A stretch of DNA of 64,000 bases, taken from NCBI GenBank assembly GCA_014379595.1, contig JACMLM010000035.1, forward strand, positions 248,001 through 312,000, written 5' to 3'. The position numbers and the translations under genes are program-made. Below, one piece after another: positions 21,329 through 36,727 of the stretch. The number at the start of each line of letters is the position of its first letter. Position 1 is the first letter of the stretch. Source of the DNA: Anaerolineales bacterium. Lineage in GTDB: Bacteria; Chloroflexota; Anaerolineae; Anaerolineales; Villigracilaceae. The notes beneath the pieces are model-generated. The model saw only the letters and a list, made by a program, of their open reading frames with translations, was not told the origin of the DNA and made no database searches.

Positions 21329-22012
21329 TTATTTACATAATTCCAAGACACTCTCAAAGACTTTATCAGCATCTATCTTATCTGAATTGATAATGACTGC
21401 GTCTTCCGCCGGGCGTAGGGGTGCAACCGCACGGGTGGAATCAACGTGGTCACGTTCGATCATTTTCTTGAGAATCTCGTCATAATCGGCTTTGTCACCG
21501 CGTGCAGTGACCTCGTTATATCTGCGTTTGGCACGTTCCTCTGCGCTTGCATCCAAATAGACTTTTATATCTGCTTCAGGTAAAACCACTGTGCCAATGT
21601 CACGTCCAACCATTACTACTTTGCCGCGCAAACCAATACGGCGCTGCTGCTCAGATAATGCCTGGCGCACACCGGAATATGCGGATACCACAGAAACGTT
21701 TGCATCCACATCATCACCGCGCATATCCCAGGTGACATCTTTGTCGCCAATCAGCACATCACAGCCACGGCCGTCATTTTTTGATGGAGGCCGAATATCG
21801 ATTTGTGCTTTTTGTGCAAGGGCGGTGATCGTTGCTTCGTCACGCAGATCCATATCATGTTGAAGTGCGATCCATGTAATAGCGCGATACATTACACCGG
21901 TATCAAAGAAAAGATAACCAAGTGTGTCGGCAAGTCTTCGCCCAAGCGTGGTTTTGCCCGATGCAGCAGGGCCGTCAAGTGCGATGATGGAGGCGGGAAT
22001 ATTTTTTGTCAT
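21329..22012 (-). CDS. cmk: Cytidylate kinase
   Basis: A 227-residue nucleoside monophosphate kinase that phosphorylates CMP and dCMP. P-loop GPAASGKTT (14-22), the CMP-binding region FFDTGVMYRA, the insert-domain GRDIGTVV and the lid RAKRRYNE are all present; the length is normal. It follows the Agl23-like gene after a 72-nt gap and is closed by a clear terminator. ATG 22012 has no strong ribosome site; the preceding DNA is A/T-rich. Confidence 0.95.
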   Translation of the reverse strand: MTKNIPASIIALDGPAASGKTTLGRRLADTLGYLFFDTGVMYRAITWIALQHDMDLRDEATITALAQKAQIDIRPPSKNDGRGCDVLIGDKDVTWDMRGDDVDANVSVVSAYSGVRQALSEQQRRIGLRGKVVMVGRDIGTVVLPEADIKVYLDASAEERAKRRYNEVTARGDKADYDEILKKMIERDHVDSTRAVAPLRPAEDAVIINSDKIDADKVFESVLELCK

Positions 22013-22084
22013 ATTTTTTATTTTCTTAAGCCTGGATGCATCAGCAGTACAACTGCTGGTGGAACTATGAATAAAGATGATGAA

Positions 22085-23857
22085 CTAAGGAGTTGTTACT
22101 TCAGGCACAGAGTCAATGAAGAGATCATCGCGTGCCCAAAGGATAATTGTCTCGCCAGACTGGGGCATTTCACGCAAGGTGATCCATCGAATCCAATCAT
22201 TGGGCAAGGTTTCATTCCACATGGGGGTTTGTCTCCAGTTGAAATCCTGCCCTCGATAAGCAGAGACAAGTACCGGGTCCGTTTGAATCGAGGTGACAAC
22301 TAAAGATGGCGAAGTGGATATATCCAAAGCTTCAACAACACTCACGTGATGCGCACGTAATGTCCATTCAAGTGCGGGAGAATCCAGGCCAACAATGATC
22401 ACAGGTGCAGAAAAATCATCTCCGGTACCCCATTCAGAAAGATCACGTACTGTGGATTCTAAAAGATGCGCTTGCATGGGAATGGATGGAGACCACCATA
22501 ATTCCGGGAAGGCTAATCCGCGCAAGCCTGCAGAACCCAGTGTGCCGCCAAATCCCAACACACCTAACGCGAGTGCCAATCCCAACACGCCACCGAGACG
22601 TGCAATACGCATTGACCAGCCCGCTGCAACCAGCAACAGACTCAACACGAGCAGAAATAAAGCACCAATAAAAAGCCAATAACGCGTGACATATTCGCGC
22701 GTATCTGATGGAATCCACACCATGCCTGAGAAATCAAGCCATGCAAAGACCCAAATAAATGCGGTTAGGAAAATAACACCACCTACCTCGTTTCGTTCTT
22801 CAGGCAGGATATCAACATTGCGCACAAGTTCTAATGCGGCTAATACACAAAGTGGAACGAGCACCCAGGCGAGATCAGTTACCTGACGTGATGGAATAAA
22901 TACTGCAAGCAATAAAGAGACGAGAAACCAGATGCTCAACGGAATGATGAGCGTGCTTCCTCTACGCCAGCCGCGAATGATGACGAGCAATGCAAGTAAA
23001 AACGTCAACGGTTGATAGACAAGAAGAGAGAGAAACAATCTGTTTGGGGGAACATCTGAAGTAATTAACCAACTGTTGATAAAAGCAGGGATGGAAGCTA
23101 ATGCGGCACTTATTCCATTGGGTGCAATGAAGAAGAGCGTGCCTGCAGTGATGAAAGTAATTATGAAAGGCAGGAGAGCCGAACGGAGAGTAGTTCGATA
23201 ATCGGTAATTGGTGATTCGTGATACGGAATATGTGATGCGTAATCGGTAGTTGTTGAATCGGTTGAGATGGTTTCAAGATCGGTGGCAGGTTTGGATGAG
23301 CGGCGGAGTTGCAATCCCTGATTGATCGCCCATGTGATTCCAAGGCCGAGAATGCCAGTCCAGATGGATGGTCCGCTCAGGAGGGCGAGGGCAGCGAAGA
23401 AGCCTGCAAGGCTCGGTTTGTTTCTAGAAAAGAATCCCCATGCGAAGATCAGAAATGTGATCGCTAATATCGGACTCGCTACCTGACGAGATAGGGCGGT
23501 AAGGCCGGGGTCTAGAGCAATGAAAAAGGCGAGAATCAGGCCCGGGCGGGGTTTGATCCGTTCAAATAAAAGAGGCGCAAAGACAAGCACACTACCTGCA
23601 AAAGCAGATATTAATCGTGCAAGGAAATCAGTCCCAGCTCCGTAAAGAAAAAATAAAATTGATGTGGAAAGGATGTAAAAAGGATGTGGGCTGAGCGTGG
23701 GCCTGAGGCCTTGTGCGAGATGAAGTGCCTGCAAGGCGGGTTCGGCTTCGACATCTGTAAGTGGCATTGAGCCGAGTTGGATAAAACGCAAGCCGAGGGC
23801 GATAAGAAAGGCCAACAGGTAGAGCCAGCCTTCGTTTTTGAAATGTCGGTAAGTCAT
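22085..23857 (-). CDS. Agl23/ArnT-like membrane glycosyltransferase (GT-C)
   Basis: A 590-residue polytopic protein with roughly twelve helices. The first periplasmic loop carries the acidic motif LTDVEAEPALQALHLAQG, the layout expected of GT-C enzymes that use lipid-linked sugars (PMT/ArnT/TIGR03663, now called Agl23). It should work on the outer face of the membrane. The C-terminal ~150 residues are soluble and extracytoplasmic. Residues ~197-222 are encoded by a heptanucleotide repeat tract and are unlike the rest (Ser/Thr/His/Tyr-rich). A TACAAT ends 7 nt before ATG 23857, with no ribosome site. It is grouped with the DUF2298 proteins, as is usual in Chloroflexota and some archaea. Confidence 0.8.
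   Translation of the reverse strand: MTYRHFKNEGWLYLLAFLIALGLRFIQLGSMPLTDVEAEPALQALHLAQGLRPTLSPHPFYILSTSILFFLYGAGTDFLARLISAFAGSVLVFAPLLFERIKPRPGLILAFFIALDPGLTALSRQVASPILAITFLIFAWGFFSRNKPSLAGFFAALALLSGPSIWTGILGLGITWAINQGLQLRRSSKPATDLETISTDSTTTDYASHIPYHESPITDYRTTLRSALLPFIITFITAGTLFFIAPNGISAALASIPAFINSWLITSDVPPNRLFLSLLVYQPLTFLLALLVIIRGWRRGSTLIIPLSIWFLVSLLLAVFIPSRQVTDLAWVLVPLCVLAALELVRNVDILPEERNEVGGVIFLTAFIWVFAWLDFSGMVWIPSDTREYVTRYWLFIGALFLLVLSLLLVAAGWSMRIARLGGVLGLALALGVLGFGGTLGSAGLRGLAFPELWWSPSIPMQAHLLESTVRDLSEWGTGDDFSAPVIIVGLDSPALEWTLRAHHVSVVEALDISTSPSLVVTSIQTDPVLVSAYRGQDFNWRQTPMWNETLPNDWIRWITLREMPQSGETIILWARDDLFIDSVPEVTTP
23191..23268. repeat. Heptanucleotide-period tract inside the Agl23-like gene
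   Basis: From 23199, ten consecutive 7-nt units follow one another without a break: TAATCGG, TAATTGG, TGATTCG, TGATACG, GAATATG, TGATGCG, TAATCGG, TAGTTGT, TGAATCG, GTTGAGA. The core is T-R-A-T-N-S-G. One unit (TAGTTCG) plus a single extra base precedes them. The frame stays open across it. Confidence 0.85.
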
Positions 23858-23864
23858 GGGCGCA

Positions 23865-23870
23865 ATTGTA
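23865..23870 (-). promoter_or_regulatory. -10 element abutting the Agl23-like gene start
   Basis: TACAAT on the minus strand, ending 7 nt before ATG 23857. No ribosome site lies between. Same geometry as at 36, 7991, 9349 and 19820. Confidence 0.5.
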
Positions 23871-23927
23871 ATCGGTTAAATTGAGTAGGTGAAAGTCGTT
23901 GATAGCTCAATGCGAGACGATATTTTG

Positions 23928-26474
23928 CTATGGCACTTCGTAAATTATGACAGTGCCTTGCTCAAAGATTGGTTTAAGATACGTTTTGAATTTCTCTTCA
24001 TTGACATTCATGGATGAACGTTCGAGGTTGCCAATATAAATATAACGGATGTTATATTTCTCAATGATGAGTTGAGCTTCTTCCCAGCGGACTGTAGTGT
24101 AAAGCTTTATGATGTCGTCGTTGCGGGAACCTTGCGGTTCGTAACTGCCGCGCCATTGTGCTTCATGTCCCTTCCAGCCCAGTACAGTTTGCATACCTGT
24201 GAACATGGAAATGCGCCCGTAGGCACTGTAGCCATCTCCAACTGCTTCAGTAATCACTCCATCAGGCTGAGTATGCAGGAATTCAATCGCGGCAGCTTCC
24301 TCAGGATTCTCACGTTTGATACGGTCAAAGTCATCGAGTGTGAAACCATATGTTGGTTTAAAGTTATTGGTCTTTGTGAGCACACCAAAGACGGGATACA
24401 ACAAACCTATAAAAATAACAATACCGATCATAACGCGAAAGCCAATAGTAGCCACTAAATTATGCAGATTTCGCAAAAGGTATGCAACTGCAAATGCGGC
24501 AACGAGGCTCCATAACATCCACGCTTGATAATAGAACTTGAAGACAGTGTTAATACGATAACCAAATTGATCTCGCAAATAGACAAACTCAGGAGCAAGG
24601 ACAAGGATCGTTCCGAGTGTGAGAATTAGCAGGACAAATTGATTTGAGGTTTGTGATTTGTGATTTACGATTTCTGATTGAGGGTCAACCAGCTCTGAAC
24701 GCTCTGTGATGAGCGTATCAAGACCACCAGTTTCGGATTGATGGTTACTCGCAAATAAATGAGCGAGTGATGGAATGAATAATGCCAACAAAGTAATGAG
24801 ACTTCCAATATAAGTCAGTCGCCGTAGCAGTGTTGCACCGAAGAATTGACTTGCATTCATACCCTGCCCCGCAAGAAAAGATATGACAAAATCTTTTTCC
24901 ACAAAGGATGCGATCCAGCTAATAAGCAATGAAAGAATCCAGAGGAAAAATACAAAGCCAAGGCCAAGTAGAAAGCCGCGCTTCCAATTAAATTGAATCC
25001 TTTCACCACGCCACAAATAAATAAGATATGCAAAGATTGGAATGAGAAGTGTGCCCCACATCATCCACAAATGCACTCCGCGCGTGGGATACATAAAGTT
25101 GGGCAAAAGTCCACCCGCTTGAGATGAGAACCCAAGATAGAACGGAAAATATAAAAGAACAGAAAGTATTCCAAGTGGCAAACCAAACATGAACAAATCT
25201 TCAACACGATTCCAGTGCCAACCATCTTCGTTCGCACGCCAAAAGACGTAAGCAGCGACAATCAACGTGGCCCCCACCAGAATATCCCAGGTGTTGAGAA
25301 AAGCCAGTCCTCCGATAACCAGAGCTGAAAATAAAAAGCCTGCATAATTAATATGCAGTTGTGCACCGAGCAAAAAGCGCTCTAATTTAATCGTGCCGCG
25401 CCACCCGCCGAGAAAAAGATTTAATGCCACAGCAATTGCGAGCAAGCTAAATGGAATTGCAAGCACATGCGGATGCAAGTCACCGAGCAGGAAAGAGAAG
25501 AATGGAAATTCGTCAATAACCTCTTTGAATCCGCCAACCATGTCGTAGTCCTGGATGATACGGGACGAACGCCACCACCATAAATAACGTTCAAGTGGCA
25601 GCCAGTGAAATGGAATTGCAGGCACTTGCGAGAGTTCTTTCATATCAAGCCATGCCCAAAATTGGCTTGAGTATTCACCTGTCGAAGAATCTTTTTGCCA
25701 AAATAATCCACCCTGATGGAGAATTTCGAGCAGAGCACCAAAATTGGAAACTAATAATAGAAAGAGAGGAGCGAGGAGAGCACTGAAAGTAGAATGAGGT
25801 TTGCTAACTTGTGCATCTGAAGATTGTTGATCATCTGTGGACTGTTGTGTATAGCCTGTTTTCGTAAGCAAGTTATATAAAATGCCATATGAACCAACCG
25901 CGCCCAATGCAAAGATAAGTGATGTCATTAGGTTGTGCGCCATGCTGCCCGTAACATTTGAGATTCGCGCAAGCATGGCTGTCATCACATAGCCGAAGTA
26001 ATAATATGAAATTGCATATCCAGATAGCCACGGATCCTGTGGAGGAAAGACTGGTGAACGCAAGATGCCGTTAATGAAAGCCAATTCCATTGGCCGCTCG
26101 GTGCCGTTCAGATCAGGGTTGGCCGAGCGTACAAAGGCCATGAATGCGAATGCAATAAAAAATAAAATTTCTGTTGTAATAACGAGAGTTGTATTGGACT
26201 TAATAAAATTTACAATTTCAAATTGACGATTAACAATAGACCATATACTTAAACCAATAAGGAAAGCCAGCGCAAGTAGAATGCCGCCCATGTCATTTTG
26301 TGCAATGCCAAACGATGCAAACAGCCAAAAAATATATCCCCAGATCAACAAACCTGCGGCGCGTGATAATGTGTAGCCTCTATCTGCAAGCGCAGGAAAT
26401 AAATAATGCGCCAGCGGAAAAGTCAGCCAGCCGAGGAGAGTGATGATAATGTACCAGATGAAGAATGAGGTCAT
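23928..26474 (-). CDS. DUF2298 (Chlor_Arch_YYY) polytopic membrane protein
   Basis: An 848-residue membrane protein with about eighteen hydrophobic segments. The DUF2298 signature region reads GTERPMELAFINGILRS, then FPPQDPWLSGYAISYYYFGY, with the tyrosine cluster that named the domain. A short soluble C-terminal domain (about 730-848) ends in YIYIGNLER. The family occurs in Chloroflexota and archaea, usually near GT-C glycosyltransferases. It is probably itself a GT-C-type enzyme or helper of surface polysaccharide/glycoprotein assembly, though its activity is unproven. Two heptanucleotide tracts (24641-24682 and 26207-26241) lie inside it. It begins 11 nt after the DUF952 stop, within a repeat tract, and lacks a ribosome site. 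Confidence 0.82.
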   Translation of the reverse strand: MTSFFIWYIIITLLGWLTFPLAHYLFPALADRGYTLSRAAGLLIWGYIFWLFASFGIAQNDMGGILLALAFLIGLSIWSIVNRQFEIVNFIKSNTTLVITTEILFFIAFAFMAFVRSANPDLNGTERPMELAFINGILRSPVFPPQDPWLSGYAISYYYFGYVMTAMLARISNVTGSMAHNLMTSLIFALGAVGSYGILYNLLTKTGYTQQSTDDQQSSDAQVSKPHSTFSALLAPLFLLLVSNFGALLEILHQGGLFWQKDSSTGEYSSQFWAWLDMKELSQVPAIPFHWLPLERYLWWWRSSRIIQDYDMVGGFKEVIDEFPFFSFLLGDLHPHVLAIPFSLLAIAVALNLFLGGWRGTIKLERFLLGAQLHINYAGFLFSALVIGGLAFLNTWDILVGATLIVAAYVFWRANEDGWHWNRVEDLFMFGLPLGILSVLLYFPFYLGFSSQAGGLLPNFMYPTRGVHLWMMWGTLLIPIFAYLIYLWRGERIQFNWKRGFLLGLGFVFFLWILSLLISWIASFVEKDFVISFLAGQGMNASQFFGATLLRRLTYIGSLITLLALFIPSLAHLFASNHQSETGGLDTLITERSELVDPQSEIVNHKSQTSNQFVLLILTLGTILVLAPEFVYLRDQFGYRINTVFKFYYQAWMLWSLVAAFAVAYLLRNLHNLVATIGFRVMIGIVIFIGLLYPVFGVLTKTNNFKPTYGFTLDDFDRIKRENPEEAAAIEFLHTQPDGVITEAVGDGYSAYGRISMFTGMQTVLGWKGHEAQWRGSYEPQGSRNDDIIKLYTTVRWEEAQLIIEKYNIRYIYIGNLERSSMNVNEEKFKTYLKPIFEQGTVIIYEVP
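24641..24682. repeat. Heptanucleotide-period tract inside DUF2298 gene
   Basis: Six perfect-length units: GATTTGA, GGTTTGT, GATTTGT, GATTTAC, GATTTCT, GATTGAG, with core GATTT. On the coding strand they give the polar loop EIVNHKSQTSNQ (residues ~598-611) between two membrane segments. Confidence 0.85.
26207..26241. repeat. Heptanucleotide-period tract near the DUF2298 N-terminus
   Basis: Five 7-nt units: AATTTAC, AATTTCA, AATTGAC, GATTAAC, AATAGAC. They encode part of a short loop (NRQFEIVNFI) between helices. Confidence 0.6.
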
Positions 26475-26475
26475 G

Positions 26476-26510
26476 TTTTAGTGATCAGTTGTCAGTGGAC
26501 AGTAATGTTG
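26476..26510. repeat. Heptanucleotide-period tract across the DUF952 3' end
   Basis: Units TTTTAGT, GATCAGT, TGTCAGT, GGACAGT, AATGTTG share an ending AGT. The tract includes the DUF952 stop codon, its last residues (STLLSTDN) and nearly the whole gap to the next start. Confidence 0.8.
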
Positions 26511-26859
26511 AGGGCAAAGAAAATTTCCCTTGTTCAGAATCAGGTATAAAGTCCACAACAGATGCGACTGCTGTTAAGTTGATGGGGCCAAAGATGTGAG
26601 GAAATGAATCGGATTCGGAAATGCCAGGGGCAGGAAGTCCAGCAGGCGCTTCCCACTTAAGCTCGGGCTTGAGTTTTGTTTCGTCAAGTTTTAACAATAC
26701 GAGGTCATTACGATCCCGATAAAAAGCATTTGCAACATGGAGAACTTGTTTTTCTGTAGAGCAATGAATAAAACCTTCTGTACTTAAACTTGGCGCAACA
26801 TATTCACCTCGTGTTTGCGCATCGTCCCATTCGGCGCGGGATGTAATATGCAGGATCAT
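26485..26859 (-). CDS. DUF952 family protein
   Basis: A 124-residue protein with the DUF952 pattern: ITSRAEWDDAQTRGEY at the start, then EGFIHCST (Phe-Ile-His-Cys-Ser) and a terminal FPHIFGPINL. Members are small, single-domain and annotated as glutathione S-transferase-like or ADP-ribosyltransferase-fold proteins without agreed function. The ATG overlaps the stop of the giant upstream gene by four bases (ATGA), so translation is coupled. Its last codons come from a heptanucleotide tract, replacing the normal C-terminus with a few extra residues. Why a cytoplasmic DUF952 protein sits between two DUF2298 membrane proteins is not clear. Confidence 0.85.
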   Translation of the reverse strand: MILHITSRAEWDDAQTRGEYVAPSLSTEGFIHCSTEKQVLHVANAFYRDRNDLVLLKLDETKLKPELKWEAPAGLPAPGISESDSFPHIFGPINLTAVASVVDFIPDSEQGKFSLPSTLLSTDN

Positions 26860-29800
26860 GGCAAGACCTCATAGATGGTTGTGTGCTTATCGTGATAGAC
26901 AGTTTTCCAATATTCGCCTTCGAACTGTTCAAACTTGGCAAGACCATCTGGGACACCCTCGAGAGCAGGATACACATTGCGTTCAAGCTGACCGACAATA
27001 ATATATTTAACCTGATACTTCTTCAAAAATCTACGTGCCAATTCAATATCTATCGTTGTATAGAATGTGCCAATCTCATCCACACGTTGTTGAACGGTTA
27101 TAGATGCGGGCCCGCGCTGCTGGCGTTGATGAAAATTCCAACCGACAATGCCTGGCAAGCCGGTATAGATGGTCATGCGTGTGCACCAGCGGTATTCAGT
27201 ACAATTGGCTTCCACGATAACAGGCGAACCTTCAACATTATCCTGCAGCCAGCGGATGGCATCATAATCCTCGCTCAACTCCATTGGCTGACCATCCCAA
27301 TGCTGGGAATATTTCATGAAGGTTATGCCGTCAAGCGTTCGAGGCGTAAGCGGATTCATACGGTCAGTCATCTTATCGGTTGTGGCGGTAATTGTGAAAA
27401 GAAAAGCACCCGCAAACAAGGCATACAACCCAACCTGAAAGATCGTGCGCCAACGCAAACGCCAAAATGGAAATATATTAAACAACCACCCAAAAGCCGC
27501 AGCTGCGCTTACAGCTAGCAATATCCACGCTTGTAAATATAATTTGAAGACTGTATTCATACGGCCAATATCGCCCACGAGCACAACAACTTCCACTGCG
27601 AGGGTGAGCACCAGCGCAGTACCGATCATTAACAACACGCCGCGTTTGATATCAGGCATGCCCGGACGAAGAAGTAAAATTGCCGCCCAAGCTGCAAGGG
27701 GCAAAGCTATCAAGCCAGCGCGCACACCATCTACCGCTGAGAAAACCATCAACGCAACCACAACTGCAATACCTATTTCGATGAATAAAGCATATTCACG
27801 TAGTTTACTTAAATGTGAAACCGGTGTCGATGCCATCCATTCGCGCGTTTCCCATGCCAGCCATGCAACAATAATAAAGAGGAACAAGCCCCATTGAGTA
27901 ATATATGATGAGATCGGTGTATGCGAACCGCGCCACGGATCGATTGCGCCATAGCTCTGACCATACCAATGCGTAAATGGTGAATATAACAATGAACCAA
28001 GTATATACAGCAACGCTACAGCGCCCATCGCAACAAGAGCACGCCCAAGCCAATCCGGTAAATTGAATCGGCCTTTCCATGCAAAGTTACGATACAACGT
28101 ATATGCCAGTGCAAGTGCAGCCAGCGGGAAATATGTATACAAGTCCCATGTATTTGTTGGTCTAAGCGCACCCACCATCAATGCCCCAATACTAAATGTA
28201 GCGATCCACTCTTTGAGGCTCATTTGTGCTTTTGATTTGATAAATGAAACTGCCCATGCAATAATGAACAACGTAAGCGGCATTACGATCATGTGCGCAT
28301 GCATATCGCTATATAAGAAGGTAAATAATGGGAACTCTGTGATCGGCTCCACATCATTTGGCGCAGGAATCACACGACTCGGGAGCCAATACCAATCACC
28401 CGGGCCAATTGGTAATTGAGCGCCGCCAATACTAAGGAAAATTCCTTTGAAAGCCCAGCCCCATTTTTGAATGATGTTAGCGTCCACAGGCACAAGTCCA
28501 CCGGGCGCGGCTACTCGTATAAAGCTGTTGAACAACAAGCGTATCGTTCCAAGATTACCCAGTAAAAGGGTCATGAACGAAGCAGCTAGACCGGAAATCA
28601 ATCGAACATCGATTTCAGATGTATTGCCTTCATCTTTTTGTCCGCGATCCAGCAAATTCCATCCGACTGTAAATGCACCAATGGCGATCAACGCAAACCA
28701 TGTTGGCAAAATAAAGTTATATGCAATCGATGGCACAATGCCCAGCAACTTTACGGGTGTGCCAACCAGCACGAAACCATAATAGTAATAATTAATGTAA
28801 CCACCCGCATACCACGGGTCATATGGCGGGAAGCTCGTGCTCTTCAAAACAGCATTGAAATACGAAAAATCCATGGGCCGCTCACCGCCCTTCGCGGGAT
28901 GCCACATATCCGAATTGCCGAGCCGAATTAAAAGATCGATCAGGAAGAAGACGAAAAAGAGAATCTCCACCATCACGAAGAATCTGCGATTTGAATTCCA
29001 ATCTTCTTTGAACTGGTCTCTGCGATTCATCCATAAGCTGAACCCTGTCACAGCAACAATGACAAATGCCACACTGATGGAGACTCGTGTATAAGGTATG
29101 CCGATCGAGCCTCCCATCCATGAAAGCCATGCAATCAGAACCAGCCCAACAATGCGCCCCAGCGGATATGCATACTGACGAATCCCCGGCAAAGCCAAAC
29201 GCGCAATTGGGTAAGCAACAAGTCCTAATATGAAGATGAACAAATACCAAACTAAAACACCCACAATGGGATATTTATTCTGTACCCAATCGTAATCAAA
29301 CAAGTCAGACCATGTACCGCCTGCCCGCTGTTCTGCAAGGCGTGTATCAGGCAGCATCAGGTCCTTGTAATCACTGGCATTTGTCGGCAGGAGATGAACG
29401 ACATTCGTCAAATCTACTGAGCTGAGCAGTGAAGATACTTCTGTTAAGTTAAAATCCTTTGTCTTTTGAAAGATTAATACTTTGGGATGATCGTAAAAGG
29501 TGAAAGCTTCTTCCGCAGCCTGATCGTTAATGACCAACGGACCAAATGTCGGATATGATTCAAAAACCTCAACCAATTCAAAACCTAAATTACCTTTGTA
29601 TTGACCGGGCTGTGCAACACGATAACAATGGATAATATCTTCGCCTGCCGGGCAGCCCAGCAATTCTCGATAATACAATGTAGTAAGCGGAAATCTTTCC
29701 GGCAAGCGAGTGATCTGACCATACTGATGATTGGTGGGGATGAGGATATAGTCTGATTGGTTGAGTGTTTCTACAAATCGATTTAATTTGTCCGCGTTAT

Positions 29801-31751
29801 CGTCCCAATATACCTGAAAGATCAAGTCACCGCGATACATGCCACCAAAGGGATCATAACCATCCACACGGAAGGGCAAACCAAAATCGTAATCGGTCTC
29901 ATTGGCGAGCGATGAACCAGTCAATGCGAGGCCGCTGCCTGATGTCTCGATCTTCAAAATATAGGGTTGACCTTTGAGAACAGGAATCGCTTGATCAAAT
30001 GAAAAAGAAACTGATGGGCCGCGCGGATCATCAGTTGAAAAATAATCCACCACTTGTGAAGCAGTTCCTAATACAGTATCCGGTGCAGCAGAAGAAAAAA
30101 GAGTCAGCACAATGGTTGAAGATGAAGCGGAATCCATTGCATGACCAAGCTCTATCCCGGAGACCTGCCCATCCACATTGGGAGTAAATGTAGCAATATA
30201 TGGCGTATCTGCTTGAATCAACGTACCTGTGGGAAAACCTAAAGGCTGGTTATACGTCCCATCCTCTGTTTGGATATGAATGTTTATGGGGCCAGGAATG
30301 TTTTGAAAGATCCAACGCGAGGCGGCCATCCGCGTTTCATCTCGCAGATAAATACTTTGAAAAGCAAACGCCCATATTGCAGTTAACACAAGGACTGTCA
30401 CGCCGATTACGCTGGCCAAAATAGTTGTGGAACGTTTAAGGGTTCCAACCTTCCAATTTGCCAGCTCAAAAATAAACCACGTAGCCATCATACATAAAAG
30501 TGGATAGATCGGCAGTTGATAACGCATGGTGGGGTTAAATTGAAAAGATTGCCATATAAAGTAAAACGCTGTCCAACACCATAACAATAAATGTTTATAT
30601 TCACCTTTGAAGATGCGCCAGCCCATCAACAAAAAACCAGCCCATGCAAGAATACCTAGGGGAAGTCCCAGACCCCAAACGGTTAAATTTGTAAATGAAT
30701 ATAAATGCGAGCGTCGTGCCCATTGCAAATTCCAAGGCAGATCGGCCTCGCCAGAGGCTTGCACACGTTGTTCACTGATATTCGCAACCCACTGTGGATT
30801 AAGTCCCAGCCCGATGAATGCATAAGGCTGAAAGATGCGGAAAGATATAATCGTTGCCAATCCGCCTGCGATCAAAAAAACAGCGATTATTGACCAGTGG
30901 GCAGTATTCAGTCTTCTGTTTTTATCGTATAGGAAATAACGAACAATGAACGCGCCTGGTAAAACAATGGCCATGGCCGCCGCATTGATTTTGGATGCCA
31001 TGGCCATACCAAGCGCAAATCCAAAACCAATACTTAACCAAAAAAGAGGGTTGCGAAAAAAATCTGTAATGCGTAATTGGTAATCTGTAATTCGTTTTGG
31101 GGGATTTTCCTGTTCTTCTAACTCCCGATCACTGATATCTATTTCGTGTTCTCTGTTCTCTGTTCTCCGATGCTCAATAACCCCAACAGCAAAATAGAGC
31201 GCCAAAAACATAAACAAATTGACAAAAAGATCAGATGTGAAAAAATGAGACTGTTGAATCTGCATCACTGCAAATGCTGAAAAAGTTGCGGCAAATAACC
31301 CTACACGCCGCCCATACAGTTTTGAAACGAACAAATACAAAATAAATATAGTGAACAAGTCTGCAAGCGCAGAGAATTGACGCGCAAAATATTTGGAATT
31401 ACTAACGTTATCTGTCATTTCCATGGCATAACGAACCACGGTCATCGGCAGGTTGCCGTATACAAAAAAAGCATGTCCGCGGTTGTGTGGATTCAGCGTC
31501 GAACTAGCTGTATCAAAATATTCCCCAACTGTTAACCAACGTTTTTGGTCAGGCGGGCACGCATCTATTGGAACAAGAGGATCATTGCATGTTTGAGCAC
31601 GTAAATTATCCAGCACACCGCTCAGGAATAATTCATCCGGGTGTTGATGGTAACCTTCACCCCAATTTGCACCCCCTAAACGTAAATATCCCGCCAGCAG
31701 CAGGACGAGAATGAAAAGCAGATCATAAAGCCACGCGCGTTTTTCGGTCAT
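26856..31751 (-). CDS. Giant GT-C glycosyltransferase/DUF2298 fusion membrane protein
   Basis: At 1631 residues this is the largest protein in the window. Residues ~1-560 resemble an ArnT/PMT-type GT-C enzyme, with the acidic first-loop motif YHQHPDELFLSGVL. Residues ~570-830 are a soluble extracytoplasmic region rich in beta-strand patterns. From ~860 to the end is a complete DUF2298 domain (GGERPMDFSYFNAVLKS, FPPYDPWYAGGYINYYYYG) that parallels the free 848-residue protein. This fusion suggests that GT-C and DUF2298 units act together in exporting and assembling a surface glycan. GAGGTGAT precedes ATG 31751. A cytoplasmic loop at ~190-230 is made of heptanucleotide repeat sequence (31061-31175). 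Confidence 0.82.
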   Translation of the reverse strand: MTEKRAWLYDLLFILVLLLAGYLRLGGANWGEGYHQHPDELFLSGVLDNLRAQTCNDPLVPIDACPPDQKRWLTVGEYFDTASSTLNPHNRGHAFFVYGNLPMTVVRYAMEMTDNVSNSKYFARQFSALADLFTIFILYLFVSKLYGRRVGLFAATFSAFAVMQIQQSHFFTSDLFVNLFMFLALYFAVGVIEHRRTENREHEIDISDRELEEQENPPKRITDYQLRITDFFRNPLFWLSIGFGFALGMAMASKINAAAMAIVLPGAFIVRYFLYDKNRRLNTAHWSIIAVFLIAGGLATIISFRIFQPYAFIGLGLNPQWVANISEQRVQASGEADLPWNLQWARRSHLYSFTNLTVWGLGLPLGILAWAGFLLMGWRIFKGEYKHLLLWCWTAFYFIWQSFQFNPTMRYQLPIYPLLCMMATWFIFELANWKVGTLKRSTTILASVIGVTVLVLTAIWAFAFQSIYLRDETRMAASRWIFQNIPGPINIHIQTEDGTYNQPLGFPTGTLIQADTPYIATFTPNVDGQVSGIELGHAMDSASSSTIVLTLFSSAAPDTVLGTASQVVDYFSTDDPRGPSVSFSFDQAIPVLKGQPYILKIETSGSGLALTGSSLANETDYDFGLPFRVDGYDPFGGMYRGDLIFQVYWDDNADKLNRFVETLNQSDYILIPTNHQYGQITRLPERFPLTTLYYRELLGCPAGEDIIHCYRVAQPGQYKGNLGFELVEVFESYPTFGPLVINDQAAEEAFTFYDHPKVLIFQKTKDFNLTEVSSLLSSVDLTNVVHLLPTNASDYKDLMLPDTRLAEQRAGGTWSDLFDYDWVQNKYPIVGVLVWYLFIFILGLVAYPIARLALPGIRQYAYPLGRIVGLVLIAWLSWMGGSIGIPYTRVSISVAFVIVAVTGFSLWMNRRDQFKEDWNSNRRFFVMVEILFFVFFLIDLLIRLGNSDMWHPAKGGERPMDFSYFNAVLKSTSFPPYDPWYAGGYINYYYYGFVLVGTPVKLLGIVPSIAYNFILPTWFALIAIGAFTVGWNLLDRGQKDEGNTSEIDVRLISGLAASFMTLLLGNLGTIRLLFNSFIRVAAPGGLVPVDANIIQKWGWAFKGIFLSIGGAQLPIGPGDWYWLPSRVIPAPNDVEPITEFPLFTFLYSDMHAHMIVMPLTLFIIAWAVSFIKSKAQMSLKEWIATFSIGALMVGALRPTNTWDLYTYFPLAALALAYTLYRNFAWKGRFNLPDWLGRALVAMGAVALLYILGSLLYSPFTHWYGQSYGAIDPWRGSHTPISSYITQWGLFLFIIVAWLAWETREWMASTPVSHLSKLREYALFIEIGIAVVVALMVFSAVDGVRAGLIALPLAAWAAILLLRPGMPDIKRGVLLMIGTALVLTLAVEVVVLVGDIGRMNTVFKLYLQAWILLAVSAAAAFGWLFNIFPFWRLRWRTIFQVGLYALFAGAFLFTITATTDKMTDRMNPLTPRTLDGITFMKYSQHWDGQPMELSEDYDAIRWLQDNVEGSPVIVEANCTEYRWCTRMTIYTGLPGIVGWNFHQRQQRGPASITVQQRVDEIGTFYTTIDIELARRFLKKYQVKYIIVGQLERNVYPALEGVPDGLAKFEQFEGEYWKTVYHDKHTTIYEVLP
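31061..31175. repeat. Compound heptanucleotide-period tract in the giant gene
   Basis: The first part, 31062-31094, consists of TAATNNG units: TAATGCG, TAATTGG, TAATCTG, TAATTCG. The second part, about 31117-31175, has 7-nt units including CTAACTC, CCGATCA, CTGATAT, CTATTTC, GTGTTCT, CTGTTCT, CTGTTCT, CCGATGC. They encode the charged loop containing TENREHEIDISDRELEEQ and RITDYQLRITDF. Confidence 0.85.
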
Positions 31752-31843
31752 ATCACCTCACGCCACACCCGCACTCCCTGGCACTGCCCGCCAAGGCATG
31801 TGTGCGTACGGTGCAAGTGTTGCGAATCAATCGTCAATAACGG

Positions 31844-34000
31844 TTATTGCTCCACCATGAAAATGAAAAAATCCTTGTTTTCATAAGTTGAAGTATAGCG
31901 GGTCAGGATACCATTCGGATAGAGTTCCTTAAGAAGTTTCTCAGTTTCCACATCCTCGCGCCAAAAGATAAACATCTTTGGAGCAGGGGCGCTCAATGAT
32001 TCAGAAAGCCTCTCGGGAAATAAAGCAAGATCACGGTCGGGAATCCCCGCCCATACACCTGGCAAACGCGTATCCAACCAATGTGGATAGGGCACAATCC
32101 AAATTGTGTCTGTCTGTCCGTATTTGTCACGAAAGTCACTGATCACCATTCCAAGCTCAGATGTATTCCATGCACCTGCCCTGAAATTTAAATTAAATTT
32201 ATTGAAGACAAGGTCATAGTTCTGATAAGCAGATGCCGCCAGTAGTATCCCGGTCAAAGTATAGGCGATGAAAACACGTTTCTTTTCGGTCCCCAAGCCT
32301 GCCACCAAACCTTCAAGCGCCAGCGCACTGACAAGGATTACTGCTATTGAAGCGCCGCCTGAGCGATTCAATGCAGGGTTTTCATCAGGGTATGCCAGCG
32401 AAAGAACGGATGGCATGATCAACACAGGAATGGAAATCAGCAGGAACAGGTCACGCCAGTCCCGTTGACGGATATAGCGTATGATCAATAATACAAGGCC
32501 GATCACAAACAAAGCACCCGTCACAATATCCAATGCAGGACGGTTTGGCAGTGAATTCACCCAGATATTGCCGTTATCCCAATTGAACATAAGCAAGCCG
32601 CGATATAAATTAGAAAAGAATATCTGCCAGGCAGGCCCAGGCAGCGGGGTTTCCATGGATGTTAAGCGGGTAAAAGCTCGTTCCCCAAACATGGCAGGGT
32701 TCGCGATCCAATAACGTAGAAGAGGCAGAAAAACAAAGAGAGAGGTCACTACAATAATAACAAGCCACCATAACGCTTGTTGGCGTGTCTCTTTTGATCT
32801 GTTGTGTATTAAATAAATAATGAAAGCTATTACCACAAGGATGGGCACTATGCGGAACGGGCTATACCCATGCAGGCCAAGCCCGAGGAAAATGCCAGAG
32901 AGTAGGAAATCGTTTCGGTTTCGAGTACGCAGGCCTCGGATCAAATAAAGAAGCGTGGGCGCAGCGAAGAGTGGATAAAGAGGAAAGCGAAGTCCAATAC
33001 GTGAAATCACGTTCGGCCAGTATGCAATCCCAAAAAGAAAAAGTGCAAAGAGTCCGACCCGTGAACCACCGATTTCCTTACCGAGCAGATAAATATAAGG
33101 AAGTGTAAGAACGCCGAGCAATGCAGTGCCAAGCTTGAGGCTTAAATAGGAAAGCCCGGTGCCAAAGACATTGGCAACCAGCAGAGTCCAATACATTTGA
33201 ATGGCTTCGCGGCCAGTATTGCGCGGGAAGAAAACGCTATATTCGCCAAGCGAGACATCATATACATCCAGGATCTTTTCAGCATGGTCGCTGAATGGCT
33301 CTGAAGGAATGGATGCTGTTTGATATAGACGATAAAAGAGCGAAATAGCAAGCACACCAACAATCAATATGTTCCATAATACTTTTTTCTTTTGTGTTTC
33401 CGGGGTTGTCTCCTGTCTAACTTTCGGAAGTTTTATCCAAAAGGCATAGACAAGAAAGCCAATTGCCAACACCCAAAGGGTAACGTTAGTAAATGTAAAT
33501 AGGCCATCCCCAAAAAACCAAAAGGCAAACGACGCAAAAATAATGGAAAGAAAAAATGGGATAAGACGCGTGGTGAGGCCATCAGGTGTTTGTTTTTGAA
33601 GAGGGAGCGCAGGCAAGTGCCATTCGTCTTTGATATATGCCCAAATCACGAAGCCTACTGCAAAAACATACAATGCAATACTGATGTTTACCTGGCGGTT
33701 TGGTGGCTCCAAGATAAACTGGCCGCCAAGTGCAAGCAAAAGCGCGGCGATAGAACGCCATGGGAAATAAGAAGCACGCGCAGGCTCTTCTGGTTTCTGT
33801 TCTTCTATTGGATGAGCAACTTCATCGACAAGCGTGCGGTTAAGCTCCTCACGGCGGCGTGCATCCCATAAAGAACGAATGAAATTAAAGAAGGATGACC
33901 AGTCTTTGGTGACTGATTTATACAGGTCAAGAACTGTGGGTTCCTGCTGTGACTCGTTTTCTTGAGATTCGGGAATTGGAAATTGGGAATCGTTGCTCAT
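31844..34000 (-). CDS. ArnT/PMT-like GT-C glycosyltransferase
   Basis: A 718-residue membrane protein. A cytoplasmic N-terminal ~80 residues is followed by three or four helices, a cytoplasmic loop, then the GT-C core: first-loop SVFFPRNTGREAIQMYWTLL and the repeated helices typical of dolichyl-/undecaprenyl-phosphate-sugar-dependent transferases (GT39/GT83-like). The C-terminal ~130 residues are soluble and external. The first codons (MSNDSQFPIPES) are encoded by a heptanucleotide tract. It lies 92 nt upstream of the giant fusion and 13 nt after the methyltransferase gene, so it belongs to the same glycan operon. Donor and acceptor unknown. Confidence 0.8.
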   Translation of the reverse strand: MSNDSQFPIPESQENESQQEPTVLDLYKSVTKDWSSFFNFIRSLWDARRREELNRTLVDEVAHPIEEQKPEEPARASYFPWRSIAALLLALGGQFILEPPNRQVNISIALYVFAVGFVIWAYIKDEWHLPALPLQKQTPDGLTTRLIPFFLSIIFASFAFWFFGDGLFTFTNVTLWVLAIGFLVYAFWIKLPKVRQETTPETQKKKVLWNILIVGVLAISLFYRLYQTASIPSEPFSDHAEKILDVYDVSLGEYSVFFPRNTGREAIQMYWTLLVANVFGTGLSYLSLKLGTALLGVLTLPYIYLLGKEIGGSRVGLFALFLFGIAYWPNVISRIGLRFPLYPLFAAPTLLYLIRGLRTRNRNDFLLSGIFLGLGLHGYSPFRIVPILVVIAFIIYLIHNRSKETRQQALWWLVIIVVTSLFVFLPLLRYWIANPAMFGERAFTRLTSMETPLPGPAWQIFFSNLYRGLLMFNWDNGNIWVNSLPNRPALDIVTGALFVIGLVLLIIRYIRQRDWRDLFLLISIPVLIMPSVLSLAYPDENPALNRSGGASIAVILVSALALEGLVAGLGTEKKRVFIAYTLTGILLAASAYQNYDLVFNKFNLNFRAGAWNTSELGMVISDFRDKYGQTDTIWIVPYPHWLDTRLPGVWAGIPDRDLALFPERLSESLSAPAPKMFIFWREDVETEKLLKELYPNGILTRYTSTYENKDFFIFMVEQ
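33962..33996. repeat. Heptanucleotide-period tract at GT-C start codon
   Basis: Units TTGAGAT, TCGGGAA, TTGGAAA, TTGGGAA, TCGTTGC, each 7 nt, spanning codons 2-13 of the gene starting at 34000. The start of translation may therefore have been remodelled by the repeat. Confidence 0.7.
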
Positions 34001-34013
34001 TCAACCATGCTCT

Positions 34014-34727
34014 TTATTTCTTTTTTGCTATCACCAAAATACTCTCGCCCCATGTTCGGGGCAAAAACACGAAACCTGTAATGGCCTGCAAACCGCCAAG
34101 TGAACCAAATAATAACTTCTGAATCTGTTTTGGAACATAACGAATGTATGGCACATCCCAAAAGCCATCTGAAAAGACACGCTTGAGTTCAAAACCCGCA
34201 TTTTGTATCAATGTGAGCCATTCCTGAGGCTGTTTCAATGAGATGTGCGTGGGGTCTTGATAACCGATCCACTTCTCGCCTTTCCACGGCTTGAGTAAAG
34301 ATCCAAGATTCGGAGTGGCGAGAATCAAATACCCGCCTTTCTGCGTGACACGTCCGATTTCATTAATCGCCTTTTCGGGATTCGGCAAATGCTCCACAAT
34401 ATGTTTGATGATCACAACATTGAAGGAGCTATTGGTAAATGGTAATTCCTGAGCAGATGCAGTTTGCAATGACGATTTATTTACAATAGATTTGGATTCT
34501 TTAACCGCCCAATGATTCAGGTCAATACCTACCGTTTCAAACGTATCTTCAAGCTGGGCTACCAAATGCCCCATGCCCAATCCCACCTCAAGCATACGCG
34601 CTCCGCGGGTTCCATAGCGCCTTGCCAGCATGGCAAAGAATCGATTAGACCACCAATACATACTATATTTGGCAAATGTGATATTGGCGTACGTGTGTGT
34701 AGAGAAATATTTTTCGTCGAAAGACAT
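34014..34727 (-). CDS. Class I SAM-dependent methyltransferase
   Basis: A 237-residue methyltransferase. Motif I LEVGLGMGHL binds SAM, the acidic post-I residue is in VGIDLN, and motifs FNVVIIKHIVEHLPNP and GGYLILATPN complete the Methyltransf_11-type core. Start M at 34727 (MSFDEKYFST) is preferred. The longer frame to 34763 would be encoded by a TACA-rich repeat and starts inside it. Given the surrounding glycosyltransferases, it probably methylates a sugar or lipid intermediate of the surface glycan. The substrate is unknown. Confidence 0.82.
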   Translation of the reverse strand: MSFDEKYFSTHTYANITFAKYSMYWWSNRFFAMLARRYGTRGARMLEVGLGMGHLVAQLEDTFETVGIDLNHWAVKESKSIVNKSSLQTASAQELPFTNSSFNVVIIKHIVEHLPNPEKAINEIGRVTQKGGYLILATPNLGSLLKPWKGEKWIGYQDPTHISLKQPQEWLTLIQNAGFELKRVFSDGFWDVPYIRYVPKQIQKLLFGSLGGLQAITGFVFLPRTWGESILVIAKKK

Positions 34728-34740
34728 GGAGTAAGCACGC

Positions 34741-34796
34741 AGGTATACAAGTATTATGTACACAGGTATACAAGCTTGCCTGTGTACATGTTTACA
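34741..34796. repeat. GTATACAAG/TGTACA-rich repeat tract upstream of methyltransferase
   Basis: AGGTATACAAG occurs at 34741 and again at 34764, with GTACA words between and after (TGTACAC, TGTACATG, TTTACA). Spacing is close to multiples of 7 with insertions. It fills the gap between the two methyltransferase genes. Confidence 0.65.
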
Positions 34797-34799
34797 TTT

Positions 34800-35570
34800 C
34801 TACTTCTTTCTCGCGATATAAAAAGTAAATGTCCCATTCTCAACTGGTTCTGGTGATGAATATTTTTTGACATATTTTTCCGTCAGAGCCAGGTTCCATT
34901 TTGTGCGGGCAATGATCCATTTGCCTGTCAGCAGACGTGCCACAACCGACGGAATGCCAAAATAGTGTCCCCATTCTAACACGCGCATGGAGGCAGGCGA
35001 AAAATAATTCCATGAACGTTCAAGGGTAAAGCCTGCACGTTCGAGGCGTGCCTGCCAAATATTAGGCTCATCAGCATGGGAGACACGGGAAATTTTCCTG
35101 AACCATTCCGTGTAACCTTTGCCCAACACCTTCGAAATGGACAATTCGCTTAAGTATCTCGTGTTCGGCACACAGAAATAAAAAGGCGCATTGGGTTTTA
35201 ATACGCGAGCCGTGTCTGCAAGAACTGCATCAATATGAGGAATATGTTCCAAGACCGAGTTGCTGAATCCACTGGCGAAATGATTGGAAGGAAAAGGTGA
35301 GTGCGCACCATCCGCTTCTACCAAAGATTTGTACGCGCCGAATTTCTTTGCTTCGTGAATAGGACCATGCCAGGGATCAAGGCCTACATCTAATTTCTGG
35401 TCAAATGTTAGGGATGCGAAATGACCGTCACCACAACCTACATCATACACAGGTGAGGGAAGAGATAGATCTTGATAATAAGAGGATTCAATCGCACGCA
35501 GGAACGCACGAAAGTAAGGCAGGTCTCTTAATTGGAGGAAAAGAAAATCCTTAGATCGATGAGTGAGCAC
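34800..35570 (-). CDS. SAM-dependent methyltransferase, glycan locus
   Basis: A 256-residue class I methyltransferase: YDVGCGDGHFA is motif I, VGLDPWHG carries the acidic residue, and SNSVLEHIPHIDAVL plus PNAPFYFCVPN follow in the usual order. The start is a GTG at 35570 that shares one base with the stop of the upstream GT4 gene. GAGGAAAT precedes it, so translation is coupled. The C-terminal region (LEWGHYFGIPSVVAR) suits a sugar-acceptor enzyme but specificity is not visible. Confidence 0.82.
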   Translation of the reverse strand: MLTHRSKDFLFLQLRDLPYFRAFLRAIESSYYQDLSLPSPVYDVGCGDGHFASLTFDQKLDVGLDPWHGPIHEAKKFGAYKSLVEADGAHSPFPSNHFASGFSNSVLEHIPHIDAVLADTARVLKPNAPFYFCVPNTRYLSELSISKVLGKGYTEWFRKISRVSHADEPNIWQARLERAGFTLERSWNYFSPASMRVLEWGHYFGIPSVVARLLTGKWIIARTKWNLALTEKYVKKYSSPEPVENGTFTFYIARKK

Positions 35571-36727
35571 TATTTCCTCATCAATTTTTCAAATAATTTT
35601 TCATATTCCTGTGCAATTGAATCAGGGTCATAGGCTTTCTTAATCGCCTCAATATCTCCCTCATATTTTTCAGGTTCATCCAAAACAGACAGAATTGCAT
35701 CAGCCAGGCTTTCTGCATTTCCAATTTCAGAGACTTTGCCCATTCCATGCATCAGGACGGGCTGCCTCACACCGGGCAATGCTGATGGGACTGATGGCAC
35801 TCCGTTTATCATGGCTTCGATCTGTACGAGACCAAAAGCCTCAGTTGAATTAAGAGATGGTACGGTTAATACATCAAGGTTGGGATATAACGCCGCCATT
35901 TGAACGGGGTCAAGATTTCCTAAAAATCTCCAATGCCCGCTGGCTTGATATTCAAGGATCCGTGGAATGAGGCGGTCATAATATTTCTGTTCACCCATAA
36001 CATGGCGATATTGCCCGGCAAACAGAACCTGTGCCTTCGGATATTTTTCCAGGATGCGTGGCATCGCATCCAACAGGACCTCGACCCCTTTTTCTGTGAC
36101 GAAACGTGCAGCCATACCGATGACAGGCTTTCGCTCTTCAAGACGATTTGCCATAGCAAAAGCGGAAACCGCTTCAGGTTCAGGATCAGGTAATTCGACA
36201 GGAGGCAGGATCGGGGTCAGTTTTGATGCGTATCGTGAGAGGTATGGAGAATTATCCGCATAGTCCTGTGTATAAGTGACGATATGATCCGCTAAAAGTC
36301 CAGCCATGTTGTTTTGAAATTGAACAACAAAATTCACAAATCGGTTGAAGCCACCAGATGGAAGCAATAAATCGCAGTGATAAGTAAGTACTGCAGGTTT
36401 GCGGAAGAGGCGAGCACGCAACGCGACACCGGGAGCATCAAATTGAGGTAAGTGCATTTGGACAACATCGTGTTGTTTAACAAGCCTTGTCGCGACAAAT
36501 CCGAAAGTTGGTGCGATCACGCCTTTGCTGACGCGTGCCACAACAGGCACACGAATAACTTTCACGCCATCCATGATTTCTTCTCGTGGAAGAGATGGAT
36601 CATATTGAGTGGTCATTACAGTCACTTCATGTCCGCGTTTGACAAAAGCACGAGCCAGACGCTCGGCGTAAATGGTAAGGCCCGAAGTATGTGGGCGATA
36701 GTAGGTGAGAACAGTTAATATTTTCAT
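35570..36727 (-). CDS. GT4-family glycosyltransferase
   Basis: A 385-residue GT-B fold retaining glycosyltransferase. The N-terminal domain begins with ILTVLTYYRPHTSGLTIYAE, which is the donor-independent GT4 signature. The C-terminal domain has GMAARFVTEKGVEVLLDA and the E-x7-E element (STEAFGLVQIEAM) that contacts the nucleotide sugar. It is cytoplasmic and membrane-associated and probably builds the lipid-linked precursor that the downstream GT-C enzymes use. A TATAAT lies 11 nt before ATG 36727, leaving almost no leader. It is the first gene of the minus-strand run down to 22 kb. Confidence 0.9.
   Translation of the reverse strand: MKILTVLTYYRPHTSGLTIYAERLARAFVKRGHEVTVMTTQYDPSLPREEIMDGVKVIRVPVVARVSKGVIAPTFGFVATRLVKQHDVVQMHLPQFDAPGVALRARLFRKPAVLTYHCDLLLPSGGFNRFVNFVVQFQNNMAGLLADHIVTYTQDYADNSPYLSRYASKLTPILPPVELPDPEPEAVSAFAMANRLEERKPVIGMAARFVTEKGVEVLLDAMPRILEKYPKAQVLFAGQYRHVMGEQKYYDRLIPRILEYQASGHWRFLGNLDPVQMAALYPNLDVLTVPSLNSTEAFGLVQIEAMINGVPSVPSALPGVRQPVLMHGMGKVSEIGNAESLADAILSVLDEPEKYEGDIEAIKKAYDPDSIAQEYEKLFEKLMRK

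Follow-up and report, generated by a model that had tools for sequence, protein, structure and literature searches.

We describe repeats with a period of seven nucleotides (heptad tracts) in a 64,000-nucleotide window of the Anaerolineales bacterium assembly GCA_014379595.1 (positions 248001-312000 of one contig; genome of 4.47 Mb in 72 contigs), and in the orthologous DNA of related species. What is new is that heptad arrays recur inside genes, in the same protein linkers, across many species of one genus, and that these genes stay unbroken; the kind of repeat was already known, mainly from cyanobacteria. On balance, we favour the reading that arrays like the short tandemly repeated repetitive (STRR) sequences seed tolerant DNA, are renewed in place by slippage in 7-bp steps and are largely neutral. 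Throughout, L-numbers denote loci or DNA stretches compared, and G-numbers denote genomes.

Heptad tracts in protein linkers

We scanned sequences for segments that match themselves at a fixed lag (match +1, mismatch -1), with a cut-off score of at least 11 in the window and of at least 13 for comparative tract counts. Five segments of the window reached the cut-off at lag 7, against a mean of 0.4 in ten order-2 Markov simulations. At the other lags we counted 1 (lag 4), 0 (5), 3 (6), 0 (8), 1 (9), 0 (10), 2 (11), 0 (12) and 0 (13) segments; lag 14, twice the heptad period, gave 3. Eight lag-7 segments scored at least 9, all of them starting between 23195 and 33966, and such clustering was reached in one of 200,000 random draws (5e-6; 1.5e-4 after merging tracts of the same linker). 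Tandem Repeats Finder reported period-7 arrays at 24640-24679 and 31147-31167 in the locus, and two short ones at 4894 and 7319. A 50-kb E. coli control contained no period-7 tract. There was none either in 81 kb of Tolypothrix plasmid DNA (score at least 13; four period-8 tracts), which is therefore unusable as a cyanobacterial positive control.

An earlier note on this DNA had listed seven tracts and seen none elsewhere in the window. At comparable strength the latter statement holds, with no period-7 segment scoring at least 9 outside 22000-36000 when the whole window was scanned. Among the seven, those placed at 23191, 24641, 26207 and 31061 scored at least 11, those at 26476 and 33962 were weak (9 and 10), and the one at 34741 is without a lag-7 segment and has period 8 instead (34758-34803, score 10). 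Absent from that list was a strong tract of three exact TGTTCTC copies, the only one in the window to qualify as a perfect heptamer simple sequence repeat (7n3, at least three exact tandem 7-mers); imperfect copies make up the rest of the window's tracts.

Across the 29 best-matching genomes, out of 36 of the same genus, the orthologous locus held 64 tracts: 45 lay in seven "hot" linkers of two proteins, none fell elsewhere in six aligned open reading frames (ORFs), and 19 lay outside these ORFs as aligned, for example at gene junctions. (L035, on the same contig as L008, was excluded from tract, relic and length counts, and L036 from linker-length counts.) The tracts are mostly within genes, as the earlier note had stated. 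Since the hot linkers were defined from the tracts themselves, their occupancy is a biased estimate: in the 1631-aa PMT/DUF2298 protein, relatives with a tract numbered 10/21 at aa 197-231 (with mostly different cores), 8/22 at aa 276-288, 9/21 at aa 431-448 and 9/22 at aa 1035-1050, and in the 848-aa DUF2298 protein 4/20 at aa 79-87, 6/19 at aa 203-231 and 4/14 at aa 575-610. The remaining indel-rich places of both proteins had no tract, and one tract position in each falls outside indel-rich regions. Indel-rich sites of the 718-aa PMT_2 protein were without a tract scoring at least 13 (6-12 relatives covered). The 590-aa ORF is indel-rich at aa 179-225, around its tract at 23195, and one of five relatives has a tract there. 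CAGT-type tracts also occur at the equivalent DUF952 gene junction in L003, L011 and L030.

The period is imprinted even on hot linkers that carry no tract. In 89 such sequences, none scoring at least 13, lag-7 matching was 0.331, compared with 0.251 (standard deviation (SD) 0.005) in codon-order shuffles, and all seven sites exceeded each of their own 200 shuffles, although the sequences share descent and the shuffle figures are not independent probabilities. Matching was 0.309 at lag 14, without excess at lags 10, 11 and 13, and slightly raised at lags 5 (0.259) and 8 (0.266), where the shuffle maxima were 0.260 and 0.261. By comparison, 194 other indel-rich stretches reached 0.260 against 0.251 at lag 7, not above the largest of 100 shuffles (0.260), and had a greater excess at lag 5 (0.275). 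Because 7 is not a multiple of 3, a repeat at the protein level cannot produce the imprint. The hot-linker residues of relatives are 21-52% identical to those of the window; an unrenewed periodicity should have faded, and we therefore infer renewal.

The lag-7 signal thus exceeded its controls in both the window and the linkers, a comparison on which the earlier note had let its case depend. That the tracts are chance, or a low-complexity artefact of AT-rich linkers, is hardly credible given the lag specificity of both tests and given that 282 kb of orthologous loci contained 69 tracts of period 7 but 0-6 at other lags from 4 to 13. This holds even though two of the seven tracts first listed are weak, another lacks the period, and some classes of heptad are simply runs of pyrimidines (TTCTTTC, for example).

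The genes around these linkers remain open. Among 26 loci with a homolog of the 1631-aa protein, some spanning genes only in part, the frame changed between aligned pieces only in L028 and L030, and no in-frame stop occurred in 54 aligned pieces of the 848-aa and 1631-aa proteins. These results bear on the possibility that the tracts are contingency loci, in which PMT/DUF2298 enzymes would be turned on and off within a population by the frame shifts that follow gain or loss of units. Any 7-bp step does shift the frame, and in L030 (G015) the frame of the 1631-aa homolog differs on the two sides of a heptad tract of 8 units (5058-5113). However, the same homolog shifts again near 4250 without a tract, and that of L028 (G017) has several frame changes, so that assembly error or decay fits equally well. 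Long perfect repeats were not found either: across 172 tracts the longest perfect run was 4.1 units and the median 2.1. The hmw genes of Haemophilus influenzae reportedly carry heptameric phase-variation repeats with a promoter role; their 7-bp tandem units are alike, but the locus has neither a long perfect array nor a clear sign of on/off alleles. Moreover, similar tracts lie in genes that are probably essential, such as those of tRNA synthetases. We consider contingency switching very unlikely.

Heptad tracts occur in a range of other proteins. All three MutS2 genes found (L059, L129, L132) have heptads, differing in sequence from gene to gene, in the linker that precedes the Smr domain, and two of them have heptads at a second place as well; L129 and L132 share 77 and 83% identity with L059. 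Three tracts lie in PriA of G015, others in valyl- and glycyl-tRNA synthetases and in HypF, and a biotin carboxylase has a pyrimidine-rich TTCTTTC tract. The earlier note had proposed a role in diversifying surface-glycan enzymes. Tracts are spread genome-wide and reach MutS2, PriA, tRNA synthetases and HypF, and are therefore no device of surface-glycan genes; in the two main proteins they lie in unconserved linkers, so that enzyme diversification is not indicated. Neither phase variation nor a glycan-diversifying role is supported.

Genome-wide spread and unit families

Heptad tracts are not confined to the glycan locus, contrary to the earlier note, yet they are truly concentrated there. 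Outside the window, 705 kb sampled from its own genome contained 20 period-7 tracts, with 5 at lag 6, 4 at lag 8, 8 at lag 9, 2 at lag 10, 10 at lag 12 and 1 at lag 13. The same-genus background had 86 tracts in 1761 kb (4.9 per 100 kb), compared with 64 in 215 kb (29.7 per 100 kb) at the orthologous locus of the 29 genomes, a roughly 6-fold difference in which the background of G001, G009, G015, G017, G029 and G036 had been chosen after their loci proved tract-rich. In 20 genomes whose background was chosen irrespective of tract count, the locus held 29 tracts in 143 kb and the background 12 in 277 kb, a 4.7-fold concentration. Eight of the 29 orthologous loci were tract-free.

By a simple longest-ORF rule, 34 of the 86 background tracts were non-coding (10.7% of the DNA) and 52 lay in ORFs. 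Density was 18.1 per 100 kb in the non-coding background and 3.3 in background ORFs, against 29.7 in the mostly coding locus; the earlier note had named equal density in intergenic DNA genome-wide as the outcome that would undo its argument, and density is not equal. Farther from the genus, DUF2298 loci of four genomes that are relatives at phylum level only (L117-L120) had no tract scoring at least 11. At a score of at least 13 there were none in 100 kb of G048 and 77 kb of G050, both of the same order, 5 in 100 kb of G057 and 9 in 87 kb of G039.

Several unit families are dispersed in the genomes. Among 100 tracts outside the locus, from the window's genus and two other genera of the order, 220 pairs shared a unit class, compared with a permutation mean of 66 and maximum of 97 (100 permutations; unit-class and inverted-array counts use only tracts scoring at least 13). 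Triplet cores followed by four free positions (XYZNNNN x4, all triplets) gave 1054 matches in 2.45 Mb and 44 in one block-shuffled copy, counts that include overlaps and both strands. The leading core was GAC with 43 sites, 20 of them in orthologous loci, which are not independent, and 23 elsewhere. Its code reads GAC-S-R-Y-D: at the 23 background sites, from 11 genomes, 1 of 92 units had C in column 5 and 83 had T or C in column 6, and at 18 of these sites the letters were predicted better by other genomes than by local composition. Solitary GACNNNN heptamers had no column preference of the kind seen in GAC arrays.

Of 57 genus genomes, 47 contained the pattern (GACSRTR)x3, one of them with as many as 74 matches (some overlapping), and none contained its reversed control. 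A sample of the phylum had the pattern in 8 of 151 genomes, each of them from the window's taxonomic family, which contributed 12 genomes to the sample. Six genomes outside that family matched the reversed control, which points to other heptad families there. We considered whether the GAC family is limited to a single taxonomic family and dropped the idea, because G039 has two GAC sites and belongs to a different family of the order.

A second family, CAGT-N-AT, includes TAACTGA (as CAGTTAT) and forms exact arrays in relatives such as G122 and G138. We found (CAGTNAT)x3 in 11 of 201 genomes, seven in the window's taxonomic family and four elsewhere, and no match in the window's own genome. Genomes differ in which heptad family is abundant, and the heptad load is very uneven within the genus: CAGNNNN x5 had 234 matches in G034 (overlaps included) and 5 in G222. 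As CAG heptads are themselves abundant, the reversed pattern is no neutral control for GACNNNN x5. Pairs of tracts at the same orthologous site had a unit class in common in 46 of 155 cases, and pairs at different sites in 47 of 912. Orthologous sites therefore share classes more often, and arrays are partly inherited and partly replaced at a site.

Array structure and the origin of the arrays

In 44 direct tracts of at least 42 nt, matching between units fell with their distance (0.704, 0.613, 0.538, 0.466 and 0.438 at lags 7 to 35; control lags 0.24-0.28), the lag-7 figure being inflated because the tracts were picked by lag 7. When the order of units was permuted, lag 14 gave 0.542 (SD 0.012) where 0.610 was seen, and lag 28 gave 0.527 where 0.461 was seen. 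Such a fall is as local tandem duplication predicts, and gives the local slippage or recombination suggested in the earlier note a slippage-like footing.

The same decay bears on a nucleic-acid-binding function, by which the heptads would be protein sites or mRNA hairpins under selection. Unit codes common to distant sites would suit this idea, as would hairpin arrays at aa 1028-1058 of the 1631-aa protein, present in several species with differing arms; transcript stabilisation has been suggested for cyanobacterial hairpin STRRs, according to the excerpted text of PMC2670836. However, decay with unit distance is not expected if each unit is selected independently, tracts show no excess column constraint, and the core at one site often changes between species, given the number of same-site pairs that share a class. 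We judge a binding function improbable.

Part of the arrays are inverted. The self-complement score was at least 12 in 29 of 172 tracts, where 0.9 were expected from random segments and 3.05 from column-permuted tracts. In many of them, about four heptads seem to be followed by a spacer and then by four heptads in reverse complement. The window tracts at 23195 and 24643 have self-complement scores below 8.

Degenerate arrays of period 8, often inverted, accompany those of period 7: 34 scored at least 13, and 10 had a self-complement score of at least 12 (examples at L003 11382-11477, L090 14539, L112 9125 and L135 15169). The L003 example, a strong inverted array with a score of 44, lies at the upstream end of the ortholog (11403-10666) of the window's methyltransferase gene.

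The main rival to our reading is a miniature mobile element, in which hairpin-forming heptad arrays of about 50-70 nt are inserted in frame. Such an element would be comparable to REPINs, which are short dispersed palindromic elements, or to Rickettsia palindromic elements. Inverted arrays do greatly exceed chance, and 21 of the 29 best have a length of 50-72 nt; heptad arrays lie inside ORFs, and (GACSRTR)x3 is widespread in the genus. Against this, a comparison of the 14.8-kb locus with its own genome gave a 30-base stretch outside the tracts as the sole other match; for this locus in its own genome there are therefore no near-identical dispersed copies of the tracts, as would mark REPINs or miniature inverted-repeat transposable elements. 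Moreover, the genome has two occurrences of the TAATNNN core x4, one of them in the locus, direct tracts outnumber inverted ones, and length change at orthologous sites is generally not element-sized. The likeness to REPINs lies in short, dispersed palindromic arrays; the tracts have no fixed element sequence or peptide motif. From PARCELs, which are dispersed dyad-symmetric short elements within coding sequence (PMC2996958), they differ in the same way. We therefore regard a mobile hairpin element as unlikely.

A bolder proposal, which we find doubtful, is that a self-propagating degenerate heptad family (GAC-S-R-Y-D; CAGT-N-AT) spreads in frame into the linkers of proteins that are conserved or even essential, and rewrites these linkers continually. 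Linker peptides would then be encoded by repeats instead of being shaped residue by residue, and a dedicated copying or template-switching activity would stand behind the process.

Under the slippage reading that we favour, a limited set of heptad families would be scattered through the genomes of the lineage, and arrays would settle where DNA tolerates them, that is, in intergenic DNA and unconserved protein linkers. Once established, an array would be renewed in place as replication slippage or template switching duplicates and removes 7-bp units in tandem; template switching would also create the inverted, hairpin-forming arrays. Point mutation would erode arrays, and within ORFs only frame-preserving changes would survive. 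In the two DUF2298/PMT-type proteins, the seven linkers would be old array sites where periodicity, not sequence, has been kept across the genus, and most arrays would be neutral passengers. Slippage as the enzymatic step, the routes of families to new sites and neutrality are the parts of this account that we infer.

Linker lengths give a divided picture, and several results weigh against this account. The linker at aa 72-96 of the 848-aa protein is 25 aa long in 15 of 20 sequences and 32 (three times), 34 or 39 aa in the others, which makes four of the five departures whole sets of 21 nt. Locally, gap runs of exactly 7 aa are frequent, numbering 18 compared with 10 runs of 6 aa and 4 of 8 aa. 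Among interspecies differences in linker length, there is nonetheless no excess of multiples of 7 aa (141 of 1113 pairs, 12.7%; chance 14.3%), and linkers with a tract are longer at just two of seven sites (p < 0.05; pooled p 0.083). A tract was present in 48 of 137 hot-linker sequences and in 13 of 251 intergenic gaps of 60-120 nt, an excess tempered by the selection of hot linkers for having tracts in some species. Intergenic DNA should tolerate 7-bp steps better, and tolerance alone does not account for hot-linker occupancy. Variation within 79 tracts was not concentrated in columns beyond a uniform-mutation null (575 vs 634, SD 33), and this lack of column constraint sits uneasily with unit codes common to many sites. 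Finally, the sample, with one genome per species, showed no within-species polymorphism. Special conservation of cores inside tracts was a separate candidate and was rejected, as mismatches cluster in columns no more than under uniform mutation.

Genes of the locus and relation to known repeats

The features of the window are listed in Table 1. A GT-C-type glycosyltransferase locus is plausible because of the family matches together with a weak likeness to AglB and DPY19. An AlphaFold2 model of the 848-aa protein, built from eight sequences, had a mean pLDDT of 56, with linkers 203-229 and 568-609 among the stretches below 50; the best Foldseek matches of this low-confidence model were AglB (E 2.7e-4) and DPY19 (E 3.0e-4), with TM ~0.3, which gives no more than a hint of a GT-C fold. 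The two tract-bearing large membrane proteins are probably sugar-transfer enzymes. The 30-base intergenic stretch mentioned above (31775-31804) has a 93% copy, inverted, on contig C15, and looks like a G+C-rich repeat, not a heptad. The window also encodes candidates for signalling or defence, namely a TIR-domain protein (44886-46454), an LRR-Roc-COR protein (49042-52215) and an nSTAND1-TPR protein (60388-63285).

Table 1. Repeat features and genes of the tract-rich locus, in window positions
Feature	Position	Strand	Details
Degenerate heptad tract, TCGGTAA/TTCGTGA type	23195..23249		lag-7 score 18; 590-aa ORF, aa 203-221
Heptad tract, TTTGTGA type, ~5 units	24643..24679		score 18; 848-aa DUF2298 protein, aa 599-611 (hot linker 575-610)
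Heptad tract	26204..26248		score 12; 848-aa DUF2298 protein, aa 76-91 (hot linker 79-87)
Weak CAGT-type heptad tract	26480..26503		score 9; spans 3' end of DUF952 gene
Linker of 1631-aa protein, aa 268-296	30864..30950		weak lag-7 segment from 30895; strong tract in 8/22 relatives
Heptad tract, GTAATNN	31061..31091		score 12; 1631-aa PMT/DUF2298 protein, hot linker aa 197-231
TGTTCTC, three exact copies	31147..31167		Tandem Repeats Finder; score 14; 1631-aa protein, hot linker aa 197-231
Weak heptad tract	33966..33990		score 10; N terminus of 718-aa PMT_2 protein
Irregular period-8 array with inverted half, AGGTANAC / GTNTACCT	34740..34803		5' end of 249-aa methyltransferase ORF as called
590-aa protein	22085..23857	-	weak TIGR03663 match below cut-off; no Pfam family
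848-aa DUF2298 / chlor_Arch_YYY protein, three hot linkers	23928..26474	-	PF10060 3.5e-104; TIGR03662 1.8e-138
DUF952 protein	26485..26859	-	profile match
1631-aa fusion, PMT_2-like N half and DUF2298 C half, four hot linkers	26856..31751	-	profile matches
718-aa PMT_2 protein	31844..34000	-	profile match

Three titled relatives of the 1631-aa protein (57-73% identical; L034-L036) come from metagenome-assembled genomes of Chloroflexota, Chloroflexi and Anaerolineales, and the host is, judged from sequence, a member of the Chloroflexota, probably of the order Anaerolineales, and not a cyanobacterium. As far as the excerpted texts go, cyanobacterial STRRs are usually 7-bp repeats able to form hairpins (PMC2670836), and the degenerate heptanucleotide repeats of the tRNA-Leu intron P6b form a hairpin by pairing and differ in copy number (PMC3488679). 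The tracts described here resemble these STRRs (hupSL and hoxW regions; tRNA-Leu intron P6b) in their 7-bp unit, imperfect copies and copy-number differences, and, for the 29 of 172 tracts with a high self-complement score, in arrays that could fold into hairpins. They differ in the host, in that 45 of the 64 locus tracts lie in seven linkers used again and again across a genus, and in not being mainly intergenic, most background tracts falling in ORFs though non-coding density is higher. The likeness to cyanobacterial STRRs drawn in the earlier note thus stands for the kind of repeat, a tandem imperfect 7-bp unit, and not for the cyanobacterial host of the original description.

Other heptamers have been described in bacteria, again within the limits of the excerpted texts. 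TAACTGA arrays are common to Beggiatoaceae, Cyanobacteria and Bacteroidetes, and in a Beggiatoaceae genome most of them stand immediately upstream of start codons (MacGregor 2015, PMC4679880). The CAGT-N-AT family of the present lineage contains TAACTGA, whereas the string "chloroflex" occurs 0 times in the text of PMC4679880 and the window genome is without (CAGTNAT)x3. Heptamers are over-represented, with slippage proposed (PMC4692102); both that paper and PMC4679880 describe them as the most abundant of the long simple sequence repeats of Mrazek 2007. In the survey of Huang and Mrazek 2014 (PMC4060949), the median category of perfect 7n3 repeats is +1.00 for 8 Chloroflexi genera. A heptamer excess and proposed polymerase slippage are shared with the present tracts; the counts of Huang and Mrazek are of exact tandem units, whereas here the arrays are degenerate and many lie in coding linkers. 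No paper on heptad repeats in Chloroflexota or in protein linkers was among the matches listed, which is weak evidence of absence, with subscription journals mostly uncovered.

Although heptamer arrays in bacteria have been noted for decades, there is no agreement on how they arise. The orthologous linkers of many species provide a natural time series, in which periodicity outlasts sequence; this asks for ongoing renewal, and the slippage idea becomes testable. Linkers of conserved proteins (MutS2, PriA, tRNA synthetases, DUF2298/PMT) can consist of repeat DNA, and such repeat-built linkers bear on annotation, on alignment and on the origin of disordered protein segments.

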